A DNA stretch of 32,084 nt, from the NCBI GenBank assembly GCA_020058225.1, contig JAGVEJ010000141.1, forward strand, positions 1 to 32,084, given 5' to 3'. Source of the stretch: Candidatus Zixiibacteriota bacterium (GTDB taxonomy: Bacteria > Zixibacteria > MSB-5A5 > GN15 > PGXB01). The translations under genes and the position numbers were made by a program. Shown here one piece after another: positions 11,078-23,826 of this stretch (positions are counted from its first letter, which is position 1; each line of letters starts with the position of its first letter). Under the pieces are notes generated by a model. It saw nothing but the letters and a program-made list of their open reading frames with translations. It ran no database searches and was not told the DNA's origin.

Positions 11078-12670
11078 CTATGTTTTTATTATACATTCTT
11101 TGCGCTTGTAAACCAGGTTGCCATCAAAATAGGTGGCTAATATTGATATCTCTTTTATCTTGGATACTGGGGTTTTATAAATATTATCGGATAGAATAAT
11201 AAAATCCGCCACATATCCCGGAAGAATAAAGCCCTGAACATGCTCCATCCCGATTGCATACGCCGCTCCGGCAGTATATCCATATATTGCATCGCCAATA
11301 GAGATTTTTTCCGAAGGATAAAACGATTTATTGCTTCCGGGAATCGGTCTATTAACGGCCGCATTGATTCCGGATAATGGAGCAAGCGGTTCGATAGGCG
11401 CATCGGAGCCAAAAGCAAGAGGTATTTTATTTTTCAGGAGTGTATTGAAGATAAAACAGTCTTTGCCCCTTTTCCCCCAATATTTTTCAATTATTTTTAT
11501 ATCTGAGGGACAATGCGATGGTTGCATAGATACCGTTATATTTAATTTCTTGAGCCTCTTGATATCCAAACGGCGAAGCAATTGAAGATGCTCGATCCTA
11601 TGGCGGGCATTGTTCGCCAAAGCTGGAGCCTGTTCCAAACAATCGAGGACATTCGATATGGCTTTGTCGCCCAGGGCATGAACAGCGCACGGCAAACCCA
11701 GTCGGGATGCCTTTCTAATATAGGATAATATTCCCTTCTTGGGGGTTACCTCAATCCCATAATTGTCTTTGGAGCCAATATATTTGTGAAAGCATAGTGC
11801 AGTCTGGCTTCCTAGTGAACCATCAGCAAAAAGCTTAACCCCGGAAATTTTTAGATATTTATTTCCATATCCATAAGAAATGCCCATTTTCTCCAAATCG
11901 GCAATCGTCTTTGCAGGAGGATAATAGCCAATTCTTAAGCCGGGTTTCTTGCTTTTGGATATTTTAATATAGAATGATAGTGCGTCCGATCCATCAAATG
12001 CATGTACACCTGTTACACCATTGCCGTAAAGTTCACGCAATAATTTGTGGTATAGAGTTTCAGTCTCCTTATTTCCCGCTTTGCTTATGGCCTTAAGGAC
12101 AGGGAAATATCCGGGCGTTTCTTTTAGGATGCCGGAAGGTTCGCCATCTTCAAGTTTTTCAATTGCCCCACCTTTTGGATGGGGAGTCATTTTATTTATA
12201 CCGGCCAATTTCAAAGCCTTTGAATTAACCCACATCATATGCTGATCCTTGGAAAAAAATGCGGCAGGACGCCCGCCGGTGATTTTATCCAGCATATACC
12301 TATCAGGCCGAACAAACTTTCTCCATCTGTCGGGAGAAAAACCCTCGCCGGTTACCCATTCATCTTCCCTCAATTTTGAGGAATGCGATTTGATTCTGCT
12401 TAATACTTCCTCAATAGAGTTAATGTTGCCAAGCTTCACATTTCCCATTGAGATAATCATATAATACAAATGCGTATGAGAGTCAACAAACCCTGGTATT
12501 ACAGTATGCCCCTCAAGATTAATATTTTTATATTTGGAGAAATCATCATCTCTTTCAAGATTCTTTCCCACAGCGATGACGGTATCTCCGACAATCGCCA
12601 TTGAATCGGCCACAAGACCATGAGCTTGAGTGTATATTTTTCCATTATGGAATAATTTATATTTTGTCAT
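11078..12670 (-). CDS. YtcJ-like metal-dependent amidohydrolase
   Basis: This 530-residue protein belongs to the amidohydrolase superfamily, YtcJ/AepA-like branch (Amidohydro_3). Metal-binding landmarks are HTH at residues 65-67 (GFVDSHTHLYY), a middle KISGVKLFADGSLGSQT segment, AVHALGDKAI, RIEHLQLL, and the terminal aspartate in FGSDAPIEPLAPL. Family members hydrolyse varied amide or formamide bonds, so the substrate cannot be named from sequence. No signal peptide is seen, so it should be cytoplasmic. Its ATG lies 14 bp inside the end of selB, with GGGAG six bases upstream, so it is expressed with the selenocysteine genes. That link may be accidental, as no Sec codon is apparent in it. It is the last gene of the chain before the nfeD spacer. 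Confidence 0.88.
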   Translation of the reverse strand: MTKYKLFHNGKIYTQAHGLVADSMAIVGDTVIAVGKNLERDDDFSKYKNINLEGHTVIPGFVDSHTHLYYMIISMGNVKLGNINSIEEVLSRIKSHSSKLREDEWVTGEGFSPDRWRKFVRPDRYMLDKITGGRPAAFFSKDQHMMWVNSKALKLAGINKMTPHPKGGAIEKLEDGEPSGILKETPGYFPVLKAISKAGNKETETLYHKLLRELYGNGVTGVHAFDGSDALSFYIKISKSKKPGLRIGYYPPAKTIADLEKMGISYGYGNKYLKISGVKLFADGSLGSQTALCFHKYIGSKDNYGIEVTPKKGILSYIRKASRLGLPCAVHALGDKAISNVLDCLEQAPALANNARHRIEHLQLLRRLDIKRLKKLNITVSMQPSHCPSDIKIIEKYWGKRGKDCFIFNTLLKNKIPLAFGSDAPIEPLAPLSGINAAVNRPIPGSNKSFYPSEKISIGDAIYGYTAGAAYAIGMEHVQGFILPGYVADFIILSDNIYKTPVSKIKEISILATYFDGNLVYKRKECIIKT

Positions 12671-14549
12671 AATTAACTCCCTTTATCCGAATATCTCCCT
12701 GTCGTATAGTTATCCCAATTCTATCGATTTCCTCAAGTATAGGGACAACATATTTCCTTGAGCTGTTCAATTTTTCCCTAAGGAATGATATGGACAATGT
12801 CTGATCGGAACTTATTATATTCTTTATTTCCTTGATAATACTCATCCATATATCTTTATGAATTAGAAAACCGCCACCGATTTTAATGATCTCACCCGAC
12901 GCAATCAAATATTCCATGGCTTCGCGTTTCAATTTATCAGAGCCGACTATTTCGGATACCGTGGGGGGCATAAAGCTCGCTCTAAGGATTTCCTTGGATA
13001 ATGCCTCAGCCATCGACTTCAACTCACCCTGCACAGTAATAGTGCGACCGGCCAGGTCGAAGCGGTTTTTCTTTTTCACCAATTGACCGGATTCTATCAT
13101 TAATTGGACAACCGGCTCCAATTGAGGGATACTTATCTGAACAATTGTGGCAATTTCATCAATAGGAAGACCATCGTAATGCGGATGCCCCGTAAGAAAT
13201 TCATTCAACCTTTTCGATATGTTTTTGATTTTATCATGTAGGTCGTCCGACCTATAATATTTGCCATTGTGAAAATTGCACTTTTTTAGCCGCACCATTT
13301 CGTCAAAGGCAAATTTAATCGCCTCTTTGGAATAATTGCAAAACAAGAAATCCCTTTCTCTATCCAAAAAAGGCTTTTGATCAAATGATGAATTAATCAG
13401 CGTATAAATGTCTAAATTGATTCTTTCAAAAAGATATTTATATTTATTTGCATCTCTATGCCGCGGCAGAACATCAAGTATATCAAGAATCATCCCGCCG
13501 CCGATTGTAATCTGAGGAGTTGGAAGCCGAACAATAAAGCGATCCCCGATAAAGGCTAAAATTGGGCCAAAAGCTTTGAAGAAGGCCACTCCATTTTCCC
13601 CCGGGAATAATCTTTCGCTCTGATAAAGACGAAGTTCGCCTTCAACCTCGGTTGTGCCTAATATCATCAAAAGTTTTCTTCGATCCTCAATAATGACTTT
13701 TGATTCTTCAATGACAGATAATGATAATGTCAGTATGATATTAGAAGGATAGCTATCGGCTATTTCAGGAATCGTTAGCAGATTACCGCGCGTGAAGTGA
13801 TCCTTGTCAATGCCGGTCAGGCTAACCGCCGTTCGTTGCCCCGGATAAGCTGTTTCAACCTGAATATTATGAGATTGAAGGGTTCTTATCTTTCCCTTTT
13901 GTCGCGCCGGAAACACTGATACTTCCTGTCCAACTCTCAGAACGCCCCCCTTCAATGTACCGGTGGCCACTCCGCCCATTCCCGCCAAAACGAAAGATCG
14001 GTCAATGTATAACCTTGGTTTGCCAATATTTTCTCGAGATATAATAGATTTTGATAATCTTTCTATTTCCGCTTTTAATACTTCAAATCCCTTTCCGGTG
14101 GTTGATGAAAGTTTGACAATAGGCGCATTTTTTAAAAAGCTTCCCTTAAGCTTGTCCTTGATTTCCTCGGTGACCAAATCAACCCAGCTTTCTTCAACGA
14201 GGTCAATTTTTGTTATGACAACAATTCCATGCTTGATACCAAGCAATTTGGTTATTTGAAGATGCTCTTGACTTTGAGGCATCCAGCCATCATCGGCCGC
14301 TACAATCAGCATGACCGCATCAATCCCGCCGGCTCCGGCAATCATATTAAGCACAAAACGCTCATGGCCGGGAACATCAACAATACCGATTCTTTGCCCA
14401 TCTGCAGTATCATACCATGCAAAACCAAGGTCAATGGTCATCCCCCGCTGTTTTTCCTCAGGCAAACGGTCAGGATCAATTCCGGTCAGTCTATTGATAA
14501 GGGATGACTTCCCATGATCGATATGACCGGCAGTGCCTATGATAAACAT
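12657..14549 (-). CDS. selB: Selenocysteine-specific elongation factor SelB
   Basis: SelB is the GTPase that brings selenocysteyl-tRNA to UGA codons marked by a SECIS hairpin. The G1 motif GHIDHGKSS is at residues 8-16, the switch region follows in PEEKQRGMTIDLGFAWYD, and G3 is DVPGHERF near residues 58-66; G4 is seen as ITKIDL. Translation-factor beta-barrel domains follow (about 175-370). The C-terminal half carries the winged-helix repeats that bind SECIS RNA (about 380-630). The 630-residue length is normal. The gene starts one base after the selA stop and overlaps the amidohydrolase start by 14 bp. Together with selA this shows that the organism encodes selenocysteine incorporation. Confidence 0.96.
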   Translation of the reverse strand: MFIIGTAGHIDHGKSSLINRLTGIDPDRLPEEKQRGMTIDLGFAWYDTADGQRIGIVDVPGHERFVLNMIAGAGGIDAVMLIVAADDGWMPQSQEHLQITKLLGIKHGIVVITKIDLVEESWVDLVTEEIKDKLKGSFLKNAPIVKLSSTTGKGFEVLKAEIERLSKSIISRENIGKPRLYIDRSFVLAGMGGVATGTLKGGVLRVGQEVSVFPARQKGKIRTLQSHNIQVETAYPGQRTAVSLTGIDKDHFTRGNLLTIPEIADSYPSNIILTLSLSVIEESKVIIEDRRKLLMILGTTEVEGELRLYQSERLFPGENGVAFFKAFGPILAFIGDRFIVRLPTPQITIGGGMILDILDVLPRHRDANKYKYLFERINLDIYTLINSSFDQKPFLDRERDFLFCNYSKEAIKFAFDEMVRLKKCNFHNGKYYRSDDLHDKIKNISKRLNEFLTGHPHYDGLPIDEIATIVQISIPQLEPVVQLMIESGQLVKKKNRFDLAGRTITVQGELKSMAEALSKEILRASFMPPTVSEIVGSDKLKREAMEYLIASGEIIKIGGGFLIHKDIWMSIIKEIKNIISSDQTLSISFLREKLNSSRKYVVPILEEIDRIGITIRQGDIRIKGVNYDKI

Positions 14550-14550
14550 A

Positions 14551-15933
14551 TCAAAATGAATCTTTGAGTTTCTTGATTATATCAATGAGAATAGGGACAT
14601 CATTATCATCAATCGCCTTAAGATCAATCAAGAAATAATTTTCAGCGACTCGGCCTATTACAGGTGGATCCATTCTCCGGAATAGAATGGAGACCTTTTG
14701 AGGTGTCAACTTGCTTCTAAATACAAGAGCTACCGAGGGAATAGATATATTAGGCAGTGAGCCTCCGCCCATTTCACCCTTTGAGCCCTCAAGAACTATC
14801 TTATCGCCCGCCGCAACTTCCTTGATTATATATTGTCCTATTTGATAAAGGTCTGATTCCTTGCGGCCGGCAAGACGCCATAGCTTTATATTTTCCTTCC
14901 ATGTATTATTAAGATAGTAACCCAGCAATTCCTCAAGCGCTGAAAATACAATCTTATCCACTCGCAAGGCTCGATATACCGGATTCTTTTTCAAAGCGTC
15001 TATAAAATATTTTTGTCCGACAATAAGTCCCGCTTGCACGCCGCCAAGTAATTTGTCTCCTGAGAAACAGGTAAGCTCTGTTCCATAACGGACTGATTCC
15101 TGAACTGTCGGCTCATGTTGTCCGGCAAATTCAGTCGTATCGATAAATACTCCACTTCCAAGATCATTTATTATGGGAATTTTTGCGTCTTTTCCCAGAG
15201 TAACAAGCGATTTCAAATCGACTTCATCAACAAAACCATGCATAGCAAAATTGCTTCGGTGCACCTTTAATATCAAGGCCGGATTTGATTCCAAAGCGGA
15301 TTTATAATCTCCATACGATGTTATATTTGTGGTTCCTATCTCAATCAGTTTGGCGCCGGCACGTTTAATAATATCGGGAATTCGAAATCCCCCGCCTATT
15401 TGTACCAGCTCTCCGCGGGAGATAATCACATTCTTCTTGTTCGCAAGTGTATTTAATATCAAAAATAGGGCGGCGGCATTGTTATTGACAATACAGGCCG
15501 CTTCGGACTCTGACAATAGCGCCAAATATTTTTCAGCCAGTTCCCCCCTTTTGCCTCTCTTGCCGCTGTTTACATCAAATTCAAGATTCCCATATCCAAT
15601 AATTTGGCTTTTGATATTGTCAAATAGATTCTCGGGGAGCGGAGCCCTACCAAGATTAGTATGCACCAGAATACCAACGCCATTTATGACGCGGCCAATC
15701 TTCTTGCGGAGAATATTTTTTACCTCAGTGATAATTCTCGATTGAAATTCAGAAAGACTTATTCCCTTGTTATGCCGCTCCAATTCTTCTTTAAATCGCT
15801 CTACTTCATTACGAATAATTTCAATGATTAAAGGACGAGCCAAAATGCTCGAAAGAGATGATATCTCCTCCATTGATGCAAGAATCTCAACCGATGGAAT
15901 ATCGCGCCTTGATCTTATAATATTATCTTCCAT
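14551..15933 (-). CDS. selA: L-seryl-tRNA(Sec) selenium transferase
   Basis: SelA is a PLP enzyme that converts seryl-tRNA(Sec) to selenocysteyl-tRNA(Sec) using selenophosphate. The N-terminal RRDIPSVEILASMEEI and the RKKIGRVINGVGILVHTNLG segment are characteristic. PLP-domain landmarks include VNNNAAALFLILNTL and ISRGELVQIGGGFRIPDI. The lysine that binds PLP is in FSGDKLLGGVQAGL, near residue 293. The 460-residue length is normal. It starts 2 bp after the M28 peptidase stop and ends 1 bp before selB, so the three are cotranscribed. No selD or selC (tRNA-Sec) is visible in the window. Confidence 0.96.
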   Translation of the reverse strand: MEDNIIRSRRDIPSVEILASMEEISSLSSILARPLIIEIIRNEVERFKEELERHNKGISLSEFQSRIITEVKNILRKKIGRVINGVGILVHTNLGRAPLPENLFDNIKSQIIGYGNLEFDVNSGKRGKRGELAEKYLALLSESEAACIVNNNAAALFLILNTLANKKNVIISRGELVQIGGGFRIPDIIKRAGAKLIEIGTTNITSYGDYKSALESNPALILKVHRSNFAMHGFVDEVDLKSLVTLGKDAKIPIINDLGSGVFIDTTEFAGQHEPTVQESVRYGTELTCFSGDKLLGGVQAGLIVGQKYFIDALKKNPVYRALRVDKIVFSALEELLGYYLNNTWKENIKLWRLAGRKESDLYQIGQYIIKEVAAGDKIVLEGSKGEMGGGSLPNISIPSVALVFRSKLTPQKVSILFRRMDPPVIGRVAENYFLIDLKAIDDNDVPILIDIIKKLKDSF

Positions 15934-16910: not shown

Positions 16911-19900
16911 TTAGAATTTGATATCGACCCAAATCTTTAACTCTCTTGTATGTGAAGTACGTTTCTGAGTCTTATCATCGGTATCCTGCCAACGACCGCT
17001 AAGGCCGCCCCTTATTTGAGTTGAGAATGAATATGAAATTGTCGGAGTGATAGTCAAATCCGACCGCTCCCCGGCCGAAACATACGGACTGGTGCCGCTG
17101 GCGTTTTCGGTTTTTTGTTTCCTCAAAGTTACATCAGCCGATATGGTGGCCGTGGAACTGAATTTAATTCTCCCCAACAATGGAATTCTTATTCCGGTGG
17201 GAGCTGTAAAGGAATACCGGGAATCGACACTGTAACTTCGCGATAGATCGCGCTTTCTGCTGGTTATTACGCCGGTCTGGCTATTCATCGCTTTATCTTC
17301 ACTGAAAATTTTATCGGTCGAAAAATTAATTTGCAAGCCTCTGGCAATATCAAAACTGAATGATAAAAGTGGCCTCTGTGAAATGGTCGTTCTTTCACTT
17401 GACTTAAATCCGGTTTGTAGGTTATAAGACTCGCTTCTGCTCTTGGAGTATCCGGTTCTGGGAGAAAATCGCTGTATGATAGGATTGAATATTTTTATTG
17501 TAGATAAAGACCCAATAGTGAATTTAATATCTGGAAATACTGTTTCAATCGATTTCTGAGGATTAACCGTCTTTTCAACGTCTTTGTTAATTTTTCTATT
17601 AAACGAAACATCTGTCTTTAATCCGCCAAGGAATTTAGTTCCGGAGCCAAATGAGTAACCAATATTTTCTGAGATAAAATTCGATGATCCCACTGCTCTA
17701 TATCCTTCATCAACGCGAGCACCATGCTCATCAGTTAATCCCAATCTAAATTTCCAACTTGCCCTATCCATCAAACCGATAAGCCCATAGGAAAATCTAT
17801 CATGATATTCATAAGTAATTGGATTAATCCAACCGGTTAATAAACCCATTACGCGGGAAACAGGATTCCAAACAGTCTCAATCGGGTTCTTTTTCTTTTC
17901 CACTTTTGTGACTTTGCCTTTTTGCTGGGGCGGCAAATCACGACGTCCCGCGTCCTTTTTCTTTTCTACGGCAAACATCTTTCTAAAATCAAGATTACCG
18001 CTTATGCTATAAGACTTGCTGGCTTGAGCCGATCGGGCAGTGCTGGTATCGGTTACATTTTTTGCCTCGCCATAAGTTGTATTAAATGTAAATTTATGCG
18101 TAAAAAAGGAGAATACCGCGGGCGAATAACTGGCGCCGAATGATTCGCTGAAATTGGTCTCTTTACCCAACCTTAGTTTTCCGGGGTTGAAAGTCAAATT
18201 GACCTTTTCAGGATCCGACATATCTCGTTTTGTACTGGCATTATAATTAAGGAGCAAATTATCAGAAACCTTGTAGCTTAACCTATAATTTCCATTGAAA
18301 TTTTTCGTTGTGCTTTCAATTCTGCCGCGATTCAAATTCTGCGATAAAGAATAATGTTTATCATAATCGCCCGAAGAGCTGAATGAATTGGGGAAGAAAT
18401 AAAATTTACTGCCGCTAAGTTTACTCACCAAAGGAATGGGTTTAGTCCAGAAAAACGGCTTTATACTGGGGATTTTCCCAAAATCAAGAGAATAACTACC
18501 CGAGGAATGATAATTTTTGCTAAGGGTAATCGGATTGGCCGGCGATCTGCCTTCCGAACGACTATATGAATATGAAGTTCTGATCTTGTTTAGAAAAAGT
18601 GTAAACAATGGATTTCGGGTTTTTCTATTAAAGCTTTCACTAAAGTTAAATCCCCTTGATGTGCCGACAGTGCTTTCTTTATCCCGCAGTTCATTGGGGA
18701 GCGTAATATCGGTTCCAAACCGCAGTCTCGGAATTTTGGTGTTTTTGCTGAAACTAAATGATATTGGAAGCGCCAAACCAAGGGATCGTGGGAGAAATTT
18801 ATCAAAACCGGTGCTTATATTATAACCATAAGTCTTTATGGCTTCACCGCCACCCAAATTATTGGATGAACCGCCTCTGGTCGAAGAGGACATTTCTCTA
18901 AAATAACTGTCCCGATGAGAATATTCGGTGCCATAAGAAAAGAGGTCAGCCACATTGCCCGCGACAGATACTCTCCCCGCGGCGCCAACGTCGCGTCGGA
19001 CATCGACAAGCCGCATCTCATCAACCCATACATCGCCCGTCTGAATATTGGTCGGATCAAGATTTGTTACCCCGCAGGCCAAATATTTAATTTGCGTAAG
19101 AGTAGGCTTTCCGCGAACCCGGTAATTGCCATCGGTAGTATCATAGGGCAAATTCATGGTGGCGCTGTCCTGTCGATTGCGGATTAGATATTCCTTTAAA
19201 CCCGATATTTCATCAAAATTGAGATTTACTTCATTTTCAGTATCCCATCCCGGTTTCAGCCGGGTATGATATTCATAGTAATTGGCGCTATCAGCGCCGA
19301 TTCTACAGAAAAATAGAACAGAATCAGCGCCCTGTTCCCCGTGAACATACATTTTTAGGGTTTTATATCCCATCAAACTTGGAGCATCATATAGAATTCT
19401 CTCGGCGATTCCCGTATCGCAATAGGCCAGGCTATCATAGCGAAGCAATAATGATTGTTCGGTTTCGGTTACAGCATTGGTCTTATCATAATAGCCGGAA
19501 ACTCCCGGAGGCGGAGAATAATTGATATTCACATCATCATTGATAACGGCAACATTAAATTTGCTTGAAGATGGCGTTATGGTATCAGTCCGAAATTTGA
19601 CTGTATCATCCCAATTTGATTGAATAAAATCGGCGGAGGCTATTTTAATGCTTATGCTGTCTCCATCCGGCGACTCAAACCACAATCGTATAAATTCAAT
19701 TTGAGTCCACGAAGGATTGCCGACTGTTGAATCTATGGCATCAGGGTCTTTTATCGGAATACGAAAAGTCTTCCAACCGTTATATTCTGAACTGTCAACG
19801 TAGTAATTCTCATCCTCAATATTGACACGAAATGAATAATAGCTATTGTAACTATCCAGTGCATTGTTGCGCAGGAGATCTTCGGTATCCGGTTTACCCC

Positions 19901-22769
19901 AACGGTTGGGATCTTTTTCATTTCCTTCGGTTCCGTTAATATGGCTGTAATCATCAGGGTCGCATCCATTACAGCCTAACCCCTCGCCATTATAATACCA
20001 ATTGTCATCATGGGGATCGGCGCCGGAACCTTCGGTTGAATCCGGAATGCCATCCAATCCTATGTCTTCTCCCTCATCGAGTATATTATTATAGATGGTT
20101 CCGGTAGCCTTATCCTCAGTATCCAAACTACCATTGACATTGACATCCTCAGTAATCCGCCCCAAATCAACATGAATAACCCCTTTGGTTCCCTTAACTC
20201 TCATTTCAAGAAGCTGTGCTCGACTCTGATTGGCGGAACCGGCGGGAAGATAACGCATGACTCCCCCCCACGCTTTGGAGGCCTCATAAAAGGCCGTGTC
20301 GCCGCGCAACGAATCGTTGGCCCGTTTATCTCTAATAGATGGTATATAATCAAACCAAAGAGTGTGCGAAAGATTCTCAGTAGCGGAAACATCCTTATTC
20401 CAAATTTCATTGGTGGGAATTTGATCATACGGATTATACCAGATAAGTCGGCCGCGCATCCGGGTTGAATCAAGGCCGATTGGCTTGGATGCCAATGTCC
20501 ATAATTCCCGATATATTCCAAATGAATAAAGGTCTCGGCTCCCTTCAAAATCATCAATATAGGCAACACCATCAACGTTAGGATTCGGGTGAGATTGTGC
20601 CACTTCCGCCGATATGGCCAAATTCGAGTTTTCCTTTGTTGAATAGAATGGCAATAAATTGGCCATCTTTGAAAGGAAATTTGGTTTTAGTTTGAAAGAA
20701 CCATCAATATCGAACATCATCGTGCGTGCCGTTTCCTGACCAATTTTTGGTTTTCTTTCGGTGGCTTTATCTGATTTATAAAGAAATGTAGAGCCGATCT
20801 GGAAATTTTCATTCAAATCATATTCCGTACGGATTCCAAATAAGGTTTTCTTCTCCATTGACATAAGGGGAGAAAATTCATATTCGATATTTATATTGGC
20901 ATTGGGGTCGGTCGCATCCTGAGTCAAAAAGGTCACCCGTCCAAAATCATAATCCACATTATAATCCTGCCCTTTTGTCAAAAGCCGACCATTGAGCGTA
21001 ATTCTTTCTGATCCCTCGATAATATTTGTCCTGCCAAGACTGATTTCGTTAGCGCGACTTGTGTTGGAAATTTCAAAATAATATTTGCTGGCTTCAGTCA
21101 CCGGGCTGGTGCCATATTCATTGGTATATATTCCGGGAACCTGAGGCTCTAATTTGGTTGTATCTCCCAAAAATGTTCTTTGGGAAGCAAATGGTTCTCT
21201 TTCGGGAAATATTAAGAATCCTCGGATGGGATCAATTATTGGAGTATTGACATCAATCTTGCCATCAGGAATTGGCTTACCTGATTGATTGGTTGTGTCT
21301 AATCCCAATATTTGAATATATGCCGTCCCGTTTTGATTGTCGATATTCTGATTAGTCCGCTCCGTTCCGGCCAAGCCCTTATATATTGTAACATCAAGGC
21401 CAGCCGGATCAAGTTGCGTTGACCCCAAGTAATATACATTACGCCACATGTAATCCCATGTATATTGAGTAGAATCTGGACGACGAGATTTTATTAATTT
21501 TAGTTTTAGGGTTTCTGCCGACAAATCGCCAATTGTATCGATTATGCCATCTTTTCGTTGAACTATCATGAAAACTCCAATTTCTCCATAGGAGCCGCCA
21601 TTGGGGGAGTTGAAAATTGCATAAAACTTTTTATTATCAATATAATAGTCATCTTCCCTCAACGGTTCAGCATATACTAAGGCCTCACTTGCCTCACTGG
21701 CCGCAAAGGTAGTGTCAACCGGATCCACATAAAATTTGGCGGTAATCACAGAAGTTGTTTGCTGGGAGGCATAAGGGACAGTGTAAATTGAAATAAACTT
21801 CAAAAAATCCCACTTGTCTATATCTTCGCTTTTTCGGCCCAAATCAAATATTCGCCCCGTGGCATATTCCCAATCCCTCTTATAATCTTTTCTGGCCGTT
21901 GCCCCCGCTGATATGGAATTCCTTTCCGTAGAGCCTTTTTCTTGGCTGGCAATAGCGGTAAGTTTCAGATTTCCAATTTGCGCCTCTGTCTTGATTCCAA
22001 ATAACCCTTGGATGCGTGCCGAATAGCCGACAAATCTGGTATTGGGCAAAGACAAAGTTGTATTGCCTGCCTCGATGATCTTTATAATATCATTCTCATC
22101 CCCCTTATACCTCAGCATTATCCTATTGGCCAAGGGGATATCTGTCTTGGAATCCTGGGAAACCTGCACCGTTATTTTTGAACCGATATTACCGTTTATA
22201 TCAAAGCGAGAAATCTGCTCCATATTGAGCGATGGAAATTTGCTTTGTTTGTATGTAGCCGTGGAGGTTCTGTCATCCCATTGAGAGCGGCCGGAGAAAG
22301 TAATCTGATGTGATCCGGACACCTTTAAACCGGCGCCGCCTTCTCCAAAAACTGATTCAAAGGTTTGCGATTTTATTGGAACATTAATTGCCAGCAACCC
22401 CCCCGCTTTCTGTTTTTGTTGTTTTGACAGGGCTTGCGATCGAATTTCGGTTAGCTGACGGGAAAGCCAATATTTGCGTCGATGTTGCATGAACTCAGTG
22501 GCATTGACAGTTCTCGGCATCAAATCATAAACATAATCCCCCTTTTTGTAAAACTGACCGGTTATGGTCAATGTCTGCCGAGAATAACTTGAATTGCCAA
22601 TGAGGGGTTTGGTTTCATAAAAACGCTTAAATGGGGGATAAACATATCCATCGAGTGAAATAAGAAACTTTGGCTCATCAACCGGAATAGGCGCAATAAA
22701 CGTTCGAGGTGATTGCAAAGATGCATGAAATGTCGGCGATTCTGAAAAGGCAAACAGTGGCAATAGCAA
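16911..22769 (-). CDS. sprA: SprA-like cell-surface protein (type IX secretion translocon family)
   Basis: SprA forms the giant outer-membrane barrel through which type IX secretion substrates leave the cell. Family landmarks include NPNVDGVAYIDDFEGSRD (about residue 735), an acidic calcium-type insert (about 880-980, with DEGEDIGLDGIPD and NGTEGN), and a DVWVDEMRLVDVRRDVG segment. A long C-terminal run of amphipathic strands ends in LKIWVDIKF. At about 1,950 residues it is shorter than the Flavobacterium protein (about 2,400). The coordinate start is a TTG that would cut the signal peptide. In frame upstream the codons read IRQITYLITTALL, giving a good signal peptide but no ATG, GTG or TTG; an ATT start near 22805 or 22820 is possible. 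It follows murB by 70 bp. No other type IX genes are in the window. Confidence 0.9.
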   Translation of the reverse strand: MLLPLFAFSESPTFHASLQSPRTFIAPIPVDEPKFLISLDGYVYPPFKRFYETKPLIGNSSYSRQTLTITGQFYKKGDYVYDLMPRTVNATEFMQHRRKYWLSRQLTEIRSQALSKQQKQKAGGLLAINVPIKSQTFESVFGEGGAGLKVSGSHQITFSGRSQWDDRTSTATYKQSKFPSLNMEQISRFDINGNIGSKITVQVSQDSKTDIPLANRIMLRYKGDENDIIKIIEAGNTTLSLPNTRFVGYSARIQGLFGIKTEAQIGNLKLTAIASQEKGSTERNSISAGATARKDYKRDWEYATGRIFDLGRKSEDIDKWDFLKFISIYTVPYASQQTTSVITAKFYVDPVDTTFAASEASEALVYAEPLREDDYYIDNKKFYAIFNSPNGGSYGEIGVFMIVQRKDGIIDTIGDLSAETLKLKLIKSRRPDSTQYTWDYMWRNVYYLGSTQLDPAGLDVTIYKGLAGTERTNQNIDNQNGTAYIQILGLDTTNQSGKPIPDGKIDVNTPIIDPIRGFLIFPEREPFASQRTFLGDTTKLEPQVPGIYTNEYGTSPVTEASKYYFEISNTSRANEISLGRTNIIEGSERITLNGRLLTKGQDYNVDYDFGRVTFLTQDATDPNANINIEYEFSPLMSMEKKTLFGIRTEYDLNENFQIGSTFLYKSDKATERKPKIGQETARTMMFDIDGSFKLKPNFLSKMANLLPFYSTKENSNLAISAEVAQSHPNPNVDGVAYIDDFEGSRDLYSFGIYRELWTLASKPIGLDSTRMRGRLIWYNPYDQIPTNEIWNKDVSATENLSHTLWFDYIPSIRDKRANDSLRGDTAFYEASKAWGGVMRYLPAGSANQSRAQLLEMRVKGTKGVIHVDLGRITEDVNVNGSLDTEDKATGTIYNNILDEGEDIGLDGIPDSTEGSGADPHDDNWYYNGEGLGCNGCDPDDYSHINGTEGNEKDPNRWGKPDTEDLLRNNALDSYNSYYSFRVNIEDENYYVDSSEYNGWKTFRIPIKDPDAIDSTVGNPSWTQIEFIRLWFESPDGDSISIKIASADFIQSNWDDTVKFRTDTITPSSSKFNVAVINDDVNINYSPPPGVSGYYDKTNAVTETEQSLLLRYDSLAYCDTGIAERILYDAPSLMGYKTLKMYVHGEQGADSVLFFCRIGADSANYYEYHTRLKPGWDTENEVNLNFDEISGLKEYLIRNRQDSATMNLPYDTTDGNYRVRGKPTLTQIKYLACGVTNLDPTNIQTGDVWVDEMRLVDVRRDVGAAGRVSVAGNVADLFSYGTEYSHRDSYFREMSSSTRGGSSNNLGGGEAIKTYGYNISTGFDKFLPRSLGLALPISFSFSKNTKIPRLRFGTDITLPNELRDKESTVGTSRGFNFSESFNRKTRNPLFTLFLNKIRTSYSYSRSEGRSPANPITLSKNYHSSGSYSLDFGKIPSIKPFFWTKPIPLVSKLSGSKFYFFPNSFSSSGDYDKHYSLSQNLNRGRIESTTKNFNGNYRLSYKVSDNLLLNYNASTKRDMSDPEKVNLTFNPGKLRLGKETNFSESFGASYSPAVFSFFTHKFTFNTTYGEAKNVTDTSTARSAQASKSYSISGNLDFRKMFAVEKKKDAGRRDLPPQQKGKVTKVEKKKNPIETVWNPVSRVMGLLTGWINPITYEYHDRFSYGLIGLMDRASWKFRLGLTDEHGARVDEGYRAVGSSNFISENIGYSFGSGTKFLGGLKTDVSFNRKINKDVEKTVNPQKSIETVFPDIKFTIGSLSTIKIFNPIIQRFSPRTGYSKSRSESYNLQTGFKSSERTTISQRPLLSFSFDIARGLQINFSTDKIFSEDKAMNSQTGVITSRKRDLSRSYSVDSRYSFTAPTGIRIPLLGRIKFSSTATISADVTLRKQKTENASGTSPYVSAGERSDLTITPTISYSFSTQIRGGLSGRWQDTDDKTQKRTSHTRELKIWVDIKF

Positions 22770-22842
22770 TAATGCCGTCGTAATTAAATATGTAATTTGT
22801 CTAATCGTAAAATAACCAATTCTACTGGTTTAATTTATTTCT

Positions 22843-23820
22843 TTATAAATCGGTCGATAGGCCTTCCTCCTCAAATGTTCCAAGGTATGTTATTTCTTCC
22901 CGTAACTCAATTCCAAATTTCTCTTTGACCCGGCTTTTCAATATTTCGGCCAAATTTCGAATATCTTTTGAGGTTGCCGAGCCATTATTTATTATAATAT
23001 TAGCATGTTTTTCAAAAACGCAAGCTCCACCATAATGAATTTCTTTTGCGCCGACTTCCTCCAATAGCTTTCCTGCGGGGAGTTTCCCATGTTCATAATT
23101 TTTATCAACGATATTTTTAAAAAAACATCCGGCCGAATGCTCCTCAAAGGGGAGTTTTTTGCGCCTCTCAGCTAATATTTCGTCCGTTTTTTTTCTAATC
23201 TCCTCTTTTTTCCCAGCTCTTAACGAAAATTCAGCATGCGCGACAAATTCTCCCGTTTTCTTTAAGACCGAATTCCTATATGAAAATTCAAAATAAGAAG
23301 TCAATTCGTTTCTTATATTACCTTGCTTATCAACCAATTGCACCGATTTTAATGCTGATGATATATCCAAGCCATAGGCTCCCGCATTTCCAAAAATAGC
23401 TCCGCCAACCGTTCCCCAAATTCCTGTGGCAAATTCAAGACCGGCCAAGCCGTTATTGGTTGCAAAATCTACCATCTCTTGAAGACTCTCGCCGGCTCCG
23501 GCAATTATGGCCTCTTCGCTCACCTTCAATCCCATGATTGAATTCCTGATGACAAGTCCATCATACCCATAATCCGAGACGAGCAAATTGGAGCCGCCAC
23601 CAAGCATAAAAATCGGCAATTGATATCTATTAGATTCTTTTATTAGGGACGAAAGTTCCTTTTCGCTATGTACCTCGGCGAATAACTTGGCCATCCCACC
23701 GGTTCCAAAAGTATTAAATGGAGCCAAGGGTTTATCGCTCTCTATTAATTCGCCGAATTTGTCTTTTAGAATTTTAATGATTTCTCGCCAATCAATAGAG
23801 GTTTTCCCTGCAGTAAACAT
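22843..23820 (-). CDS. murB: UDP-N-acetylenolpyruvoylglucosamine reductase
   Basis: MurB is the FAD/NADPH enzyme that makes UDP-MurNAc, the second committed step of peptidoglycan synthesis. FAD-binding landmarks are MLGGGSNLLVSDYGYDGLVI and GTVGGAIFGNAGAYG. The catalytic region follows in FSYRNSVLK and HSAGCFFKN, the serine in SAGCFFKN marking the type I enzyme. The end EEITYLGTFEEE is typical. The length of about 325 residues is normal. I prefer the ATG at 23820 to the GTG at 23823, because a TATATT -10 box ends exactly 6 bp before a hexamer that leads into this ATG, and no SD is present. The gene precedes sprA. Confidence 0.96.
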   Translation of the reverse strand: MFTAGKTSIDWREIIKILKDKFGELIESDKPLAPFNTFGTGGMAKLFAEVHSEKELSSLIKESNRYQLPIFMLGGGSNLLVSDYGYDGLVIRNSIMGLKVSEEAIIAGAGESLQEMVDFATNNGLAGLEFATGIWGTVGGAIFGNAGAYGLDISSALKSVQLVDKQGNIRNELTSYFEFSYRNSVLKKTGEFVAHAEFSLRAGKKEEIRKKTDEILAERRKKLPFEEHSAGCFFKNIVDKNYEHGKLPAGKLLEEVGAKEIHYGGACVFEKHANIIINNGSATSKDIRNLAEILKSRVKEKFGIELREEITYLGTFEEEGLSTDL

Positions 23821-23826
23821 CACTTC

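Follow-up and report, generated by a model that had tools for sequence, protein, structure and literature searches.

Very few bacterial non-canonical start codons have been characterised, according to PMC5472188, and those we met in the cited work are ATT, ATC, ATA and GTC. Two sources provide the closest described cases: infC, which starts at ATT in E. coli and ATC in Streptomyces (PMC5472188) and at AUA in S. aureus (PMC13009471); Streptomyces sigR, whose GTC start is repressed by initiation factor 3 (IF3) (PMC5472188); and S. aureus cvfC1 and ccpN (PMC5472188, PMC13009471), with conserved AUA and AUU starts described in S. aureus (PMC13009471). We found no natural bacterial ACG start in the literature searched, and no paper there combining 'Zixibacteria' and 'type IX secretion'. 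An ACG mRNA is among the test messages listed in PMC8266586. Here we describe the sprA gene in a stretch of 32,084 nucleotides (nt) from a Candidatus Zixiibacteriota bacterium (contig JAGVEJ010000141.1 of assembly GCA_020058225.1; hereafter the window). Judging from comparative sequence evidence, its start codon is very probably an ACG at 22808-22806.

The gene occupies an open frame on the minus strand, running from the stop TAA at 22832-22830 down to 16911. Its product was identified as SprA by TIGR04189 (689.8 bits, cut-off 200) and by Pfam SprA_N (PF14349; 113.1 bits, cut-off 27), and SprA/Sov is the outer-membrane translocon of type IX secretion. After the TAA the codons read ACC AGT AGA ATT GGT TAT TTT ACG ATT AGA CAA ATT ACA TAT TTA ATT ACG ACG GCA TTA TTG. 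There is no ATG, GTG or TTG before the TTG at 22769, which falls within the hydrophobic core of the predicted signal peptide. The original prediction had reported both this missing standard start and the in-frame ATT codons at 22820 and 22805, and both observations were borne out. It had also offered a non-standard ATT start as one of two possibilities, the other being a sequence error; the use of a non-standard start is probable, with the codon being the ACG that lies between the two ATT positions in 12 of 12 genomes rather than either ATT. Measured from this ACG, the predicted protein has about 1,965 residues. The features concerned are as follows.

22806..22808, minus strand: ACG, the proposed sprA start codon (ACG at 12 of 14 family 5' ends, TTG at 2 of 14).
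16911..22808, minus strand: sprA coding sequence from ACG to stop, encoding the SprA/Sov translocon of the type IX secretion system (TIGR04189, PF14349; matches in 15 of 15 family genomes).
22737..22805, minus strand: putative signal peptide region IRQITY-LITTALLLLPLF-AFSES, directly after the ACG, end approximate (n-region and core in all 14).

We compared this locus across the 15 genomes of the window's Candidatus Zixiibacteriota family (f1, hereafter the family) and three other families (f2, f3 and f4), taking sprA 5' ends from 68 of 98 genomes. Since G009 contained only a C-terminal piece of sprA, 14 family 5' ends were compared. An ACG stood where the signal peptide should begin in 12 of these 14 genomes, representing 9 of 10 genera. 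A short positive n-region and hydrophobic core directly followed the start in all 14, with examples such as ACG-FRRLTFF, ACG-TRKLTYL and ACG-LKRFTYL. Among the 12 ACG genomes, codons -4 to +9 around the ACG included no ATG, GTG or TTG, and the first canonical start after it lay 10 to 80 codons downstream at no common place. Some genomes also had a second, partial SprA-like match (L165; G007:C1:3061328-3062230), which is possibly a paralogue or remnant.

The conservation of the ACG concerned the codon itself and not only its residue. When the 12 ACG genomes were stacked without gaps from -40 to +60, the ACG was the sole run of adjacent invariant bases, with single invariant bases at -28, +13 and +17. 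As a stricter control we took the 11 full-length sprA genes, in which 251 columns were invariant and held a residue with four- or six-fold degenerate codons (A, G, L, P, R, S, T or V). The ACG column was the only one of these with a single codon in all 11 genes. A single codon was also seen in 8 invariant columns of two-fold residues, 1 Met column and 15 Trp columns. ACG was used by at most 6 of 11 genes at any of the 24 other columns of invariant Thr, and it made up 331 of the 1650 Thr codons in these genes. In a tree of 33 SprA rows, the 11 family members group together as one clade, and its branches are long.

In the sister families f2 and f4, canonical starts mostly occupied the same place. 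The aligned sprA start was ATG in 4 of 4 f2 genomes, and 35 of 44 f4 genomes had a GTG within 6 alignment columns of the aligned start, 28 of them in the very column. Within that range, the nine other f4 genomes had TTG in six cases (two also with ACG), only ACG in two and none of these in one. An in-frame ATG a few codons further upstream in f4 genomes G023, G032, G047, G072 and G079 means that the sprA starts of some f4 genomes are not certain. In both f3 genomes, from one genus, an ACG immediately followed a 7-bp stem, and the frame ahead of that ACG contained no ATG, GTG or TTG; one of the two (G019) had TTG codons between the ACG and the hydrophobic core. The original prediction had raised the prospect of orthologues with an ATG aligned at another position; instead, the ATG, GTG or TTG codons of relatives align at or next to the ACG.

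We also considered whether odd starts might be a general habit of these genomes. Judged by eye, murB, the upstream gene, has an ATG that matches the aligned start to within about one codon in 10 of 11 rows from the family and in 15 of 15 from f4. We scanned 400 kb of the G007 genome with 214 long open reading frames (ORFs) and inspected by eye the 45 whose first canonical start came furthest into the frame. Only two of these had a hydrophobic N-terminus before that start, namely sprA and a potassium-channel-like gene. A general habit was therefore rejected. Set against the ATG of murB, the sprA starts imply that a weak start is a habit of sprA in f4 and f1, of which ACG is the extreme within the family. 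The channel gene itself (L188:2274-3293; G007:C1:2442274-2443293) lacks a canonical start before its first hydrophobic segment and has ATA and ATC codons there. Its 8 family orthologues each have an ATG before that segment, so it has the look of an isolated oddity or error. The sprA gene differs because its missing start is common to relatives.

The region upstream of the start had an unusual layout, with the following features in the window.

22814..22830, minus strand: hairpin with a 7-bp stem and 3-nt loop, ending 5 nt before the ACG (window fold).
22835..22858, minus strand: mini-ORF ATC GAC CGA TTT ATA AAG AAA TAA, which follows the upstream Shine-Dalgarno (AT(C/A/T)G at this place in each of the 55 genes assigned).
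22866..22871, minus strand: upstream Shine-Dalgarno AGGAGG, about 60 nt before the ACG.
22843..23823, minus strand: murB, the upstream gene, whose 3' end overlaps the sprA leader (NF010480 282.2 bits, cut-off 259).

No Shine-Dalgarno (GGAG, GAGG, AGGA or AAGG at -20 to -4) was present beside the sprA start in any of 14 family or 28 f4 genes, while a 5-base match occurred at -90 to -36 in 13 of 14 and 26 of 28, respectively; in the family counts, G001 and G011 were anchored on an ACG in their hairpin arm and not on their TTG. Between murB and sprA, the upstream Shine-Dalgarno was followed by AT(C/A/T) and then G in 55 of 55 assigned genes and never by ATG; the pentamers were TATCG in 34, TATAG in 19 and TATTG in 2, with TATGG absent. 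The distance from AT(C/A/T) to the start was 46-53 nt, or 57 nt in two f3 genes, across all 55, a count that demanded a lax Shine-Dalgarno pattern 2-9 nt upstream of TAT(C/A/T)G and did not include 4 class genomes or the 9 of 44 f4 genomes in which no GTG lay within 6 columns. Family spacing was 50-53 nt in 14 of 14 genomes, including the two with TTG, which supports the assignment of TTG as their start. A fixed frameshift from the mini-ORF was rejected because, among family genomes, the start occurs in each of the three possible phases relative to the upstream AT(C/A).

Conservation extended through the leader, including a block between the upstream element and the hairpin (window 22831-22854) that reads TTTTTAACGRATTAAAATTRAC in most family genomes and may be a promoter, a standby site or an RNA element. 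A sequence model built from the 14 family leaders recovered all of them with E-values no higher than 3e-10, as expected, and gave no other match in family genomes better than E 0.003, which led us to reject the idea that the leader is a repeated element. In 132 class genomes, the model had a match at E 0.1 or better in 68. Its non-family matches better than 1e-3 were all just upstream of sprA by coordinates, and weaker ones were mixed.

The predicted hairpin, whose 3' arm contains the ATT at 22820, was supported by folding energy. Directly before the start, the 14 family genes had a mean of -5.14 kcal/mol versus -2.09 in shuffles, none of 300 being as low. By contrast, the region from -5 to +30 showed no excess of structure, with 261 of 300 shuffles folding at an energy at least as low. 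Covariation of seven hand-named pairs was 0.251 versus 0.130 (0 of 500 shuffles), although the count of pairs in which both partners had changed was unremarkable (103 of 500 shuffles); the alignment used (A3) misplaces G001 and G011. Support for the hairpin thus extends to the family but not to the order.

An altered initiator tRNA reading ACG was also considered. The window genome yielded 37 tRNA matches, in which ARAGORN read tRNA-fMet with the standard CAT anticodon and found a sole CGT tRNA, an ordinary-looking elongator tRNA-Thr. We rejected this candidate because no initiator-type CGU tRNA was found in the window genome, an assembly 93.8% complete, such that a missing tRNA is still conceivable. 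Separately, infC was present in 14 of 15 family genomes. All 14 (L193-L206) have ATA in one alignment column just after AGGGAGG, with no ATG, GTG or TTG earlier in frame. Hence, the family probably uses a non-canonical start in infC too, the gene of the factor controlling such starts, going by this alignment. A strong Shine-Dalgarno stands beside the start of family infC and is missing at sprA (0 of 14).

Taken as a whole, we consider an ACG start, an ordinary initiator tRNA and a leader with weak translation to be the probable explanation of this locus. Under this explanation, the ordinary initiator tRNA (CAU) would read the ACG and the signal peptide would begin Met-Ile-Arg-Gln-Ile-Thr-Tyr-Leu. 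Ribosomes would load at the upstream Shine-Dalgarno site, followed by AUC or AUA and never AUG. By sliding, scanning or reinitiation they would then cross about 50 nt, including the hairpin, to the weak start, where few would begin translation. Such a start, which is ACG in the family, GUG or UUG in the majority of relatives and AUG in one sister family, would limit synthesis of this protein of about 1,965 residues. The natural control would be IF3, which rejects non-canonical starts. The original prediction had proposed that its ATT start may limit expression of a very large outer-membrane protein. We retain limited expression as a reading that we moderately favor, with the ACG leader rather than an ATT serving to keep SprA low.

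Several observations weigh against this explanation. The ACG mismatches the initiator anticodon at the middle base, and Hecht 2017 is said to have found ACG a very poor start in E. coli. G001 and G011, from one genus, have TTG-KKILLSTLIVVF at the place of the ACG; they carry a separate ACG in the hairpin arm, and their likely start is the TTG three codons further on. In G014 an in-frame ATG precedes the ACG by 5 codons, though it lies inside the hairpin of that genome. The G007 channel gene demonstrates that a single genome can lack a canonical start without meaning. With regard to the hairpin, RNAalifold predicted no structure on alignment A3, G007 has no hairpin before its sprA start, and the hairpin region of 28 f4 genes with GTG folded no more stably than its shuffles, of which 27 in 100 were as low.

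We weighed five alternatives to ordinary initiation at the ACG. Translation might start at the upstream AUC or AUA, followed by a hop of about 50 nt by the initiator tRNA or ribosome to the ACG, GUG, UUG or AUG. Such a hop would resemble, at initiation, the bypassing of T4 gene 60, which crosses a gap of about 50 nt with RNA structure inside an ORF between matched codons. A near-constant spacing of 46-57 nt with varying phase is consistent with a hop, as are an upstream codon that is never AUG, a landing codon lacking a Shine-Dalgarno and a family gap that holds a hairpin. Moreover, the initiator anticodon can pair with each of the landing codons ATG, GTG and TTG, and less strongly with ACG. 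However, plain standby binding, scanning or reinitiation would account for the same layout, and the hairpin is not significant in f4. We therefore regard the hop as unlikely. The bolder reading is a programmed initiation hop, in which the initiator tRNA first sits on AUC or AUA at the upstream Shine-Dalgarno and is then moved, always by about 50 nt, to an ACG, GUG, UUG or AUG with no Shine-Dalgarno beside it. This reading would fit the spacing but has only an outside chance. If true, fixed-step relocation would account for both the tolerance of a poor ACG and an upstream codon that is never AUG.

Also unlikely is the possibility that the ACG is kept because it serves something else, perhaps as part of a regulatory RNA or protein site, with the true start elsewhere, for example at TTG 22769. 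Conservation of the whole leader would fit such a site, but the canonical starts downstream, sharing no common place, cut into or remove the signal peptide, and relatives have their ATG, GTG or TTG at or beside the place of the ACG. A start at ATT 22820 or ATT 22805 is very improbable. Both codons are in the sprA frame and ATT is the better-known rare start, as in infC (PMC5472188), but these offsets are not conserved: ATT, ATC, ATA or CTG occurs at the offset of 22820 in 2 of the 12 ACG genomes and at that of 22805 in 1 of 12, the window's own genome. Furthermore, ATT 22820 is part of the hairpin stem.

Editing of the mRNA from C to U would make AUG from ACG by one change and is known in plant chloroplasts, but PMC9845219 describes it as not observed in bacteria, and no editing is required for the TTG of two family genomes or the GTG of f4 that stand at this position, making this explanation highly implausible. 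Lastly, the sequence error or frameshift entertained by the original prediction can be dismissed with near certainty: although a single draft genome could be wrong, as the G007 channel gene without the canonical start of its 8 orthologues illustrates, the same gap recurs in 12 of 14 genomes and 9 genera, including the single-contig G004 and G007, and all assemblies would need an identical error.

Downstream of sprA and of an M28 peptidase gene, the window also has selA and selB (12657-15933), so that the organism probably makes selenoproteins.

If true, a natural ACG start in 12 genomes and 9 genera would widen the set of usable start codons and show that gene finders miss real N-termini. The ACG of sprA would offer a test case for how ribosomes use a middle-base mismatch, and the near-constant spacing between the remote Shine-Dalgarno with its near-start codon and the start opens ribosome relocation ahead of initiation to direct testing. 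These results also suggest that the start codon restricts how much of the protein, a very large putative outer-membrane barrel, is made.

How does sprA compare with known systems? T4 gene 60 has a similar gap of about 50 nt with structure, whereas the sprA gap precedes the ORF and a hop there is only hypothetical. Relative to other SprA/Sov proteins of type IX secretion, the window's protein belongs to the same family (TIGR04189, PF14349) and would differ in its start codon and leader. Chloroplast genes likewise have ACG at the start place, but in an organelle with known editing (PMC9845219). In the sources introduced above, sigR similarly has a non-canonical start that keeps its protein low, although its codon is GTC and not ACG and the effect of IF3 has been demonstrated for sigR. 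The S. aureus AUU site has a strong extended Shine-Dalgarno, whereas sprA has none beside its start and ACG departs from AUG at the middle base. Like sprA, infC, cvfC1 and ccpN have conserved non-canonical starts, theirs being associated with low or self-controlled expression. What sprA shares with conserved genes of the infC, sigR and ccpN kind is the lack of ATG, GTG or TTG at the start across most orthologues, with ACG in 12 of 14.

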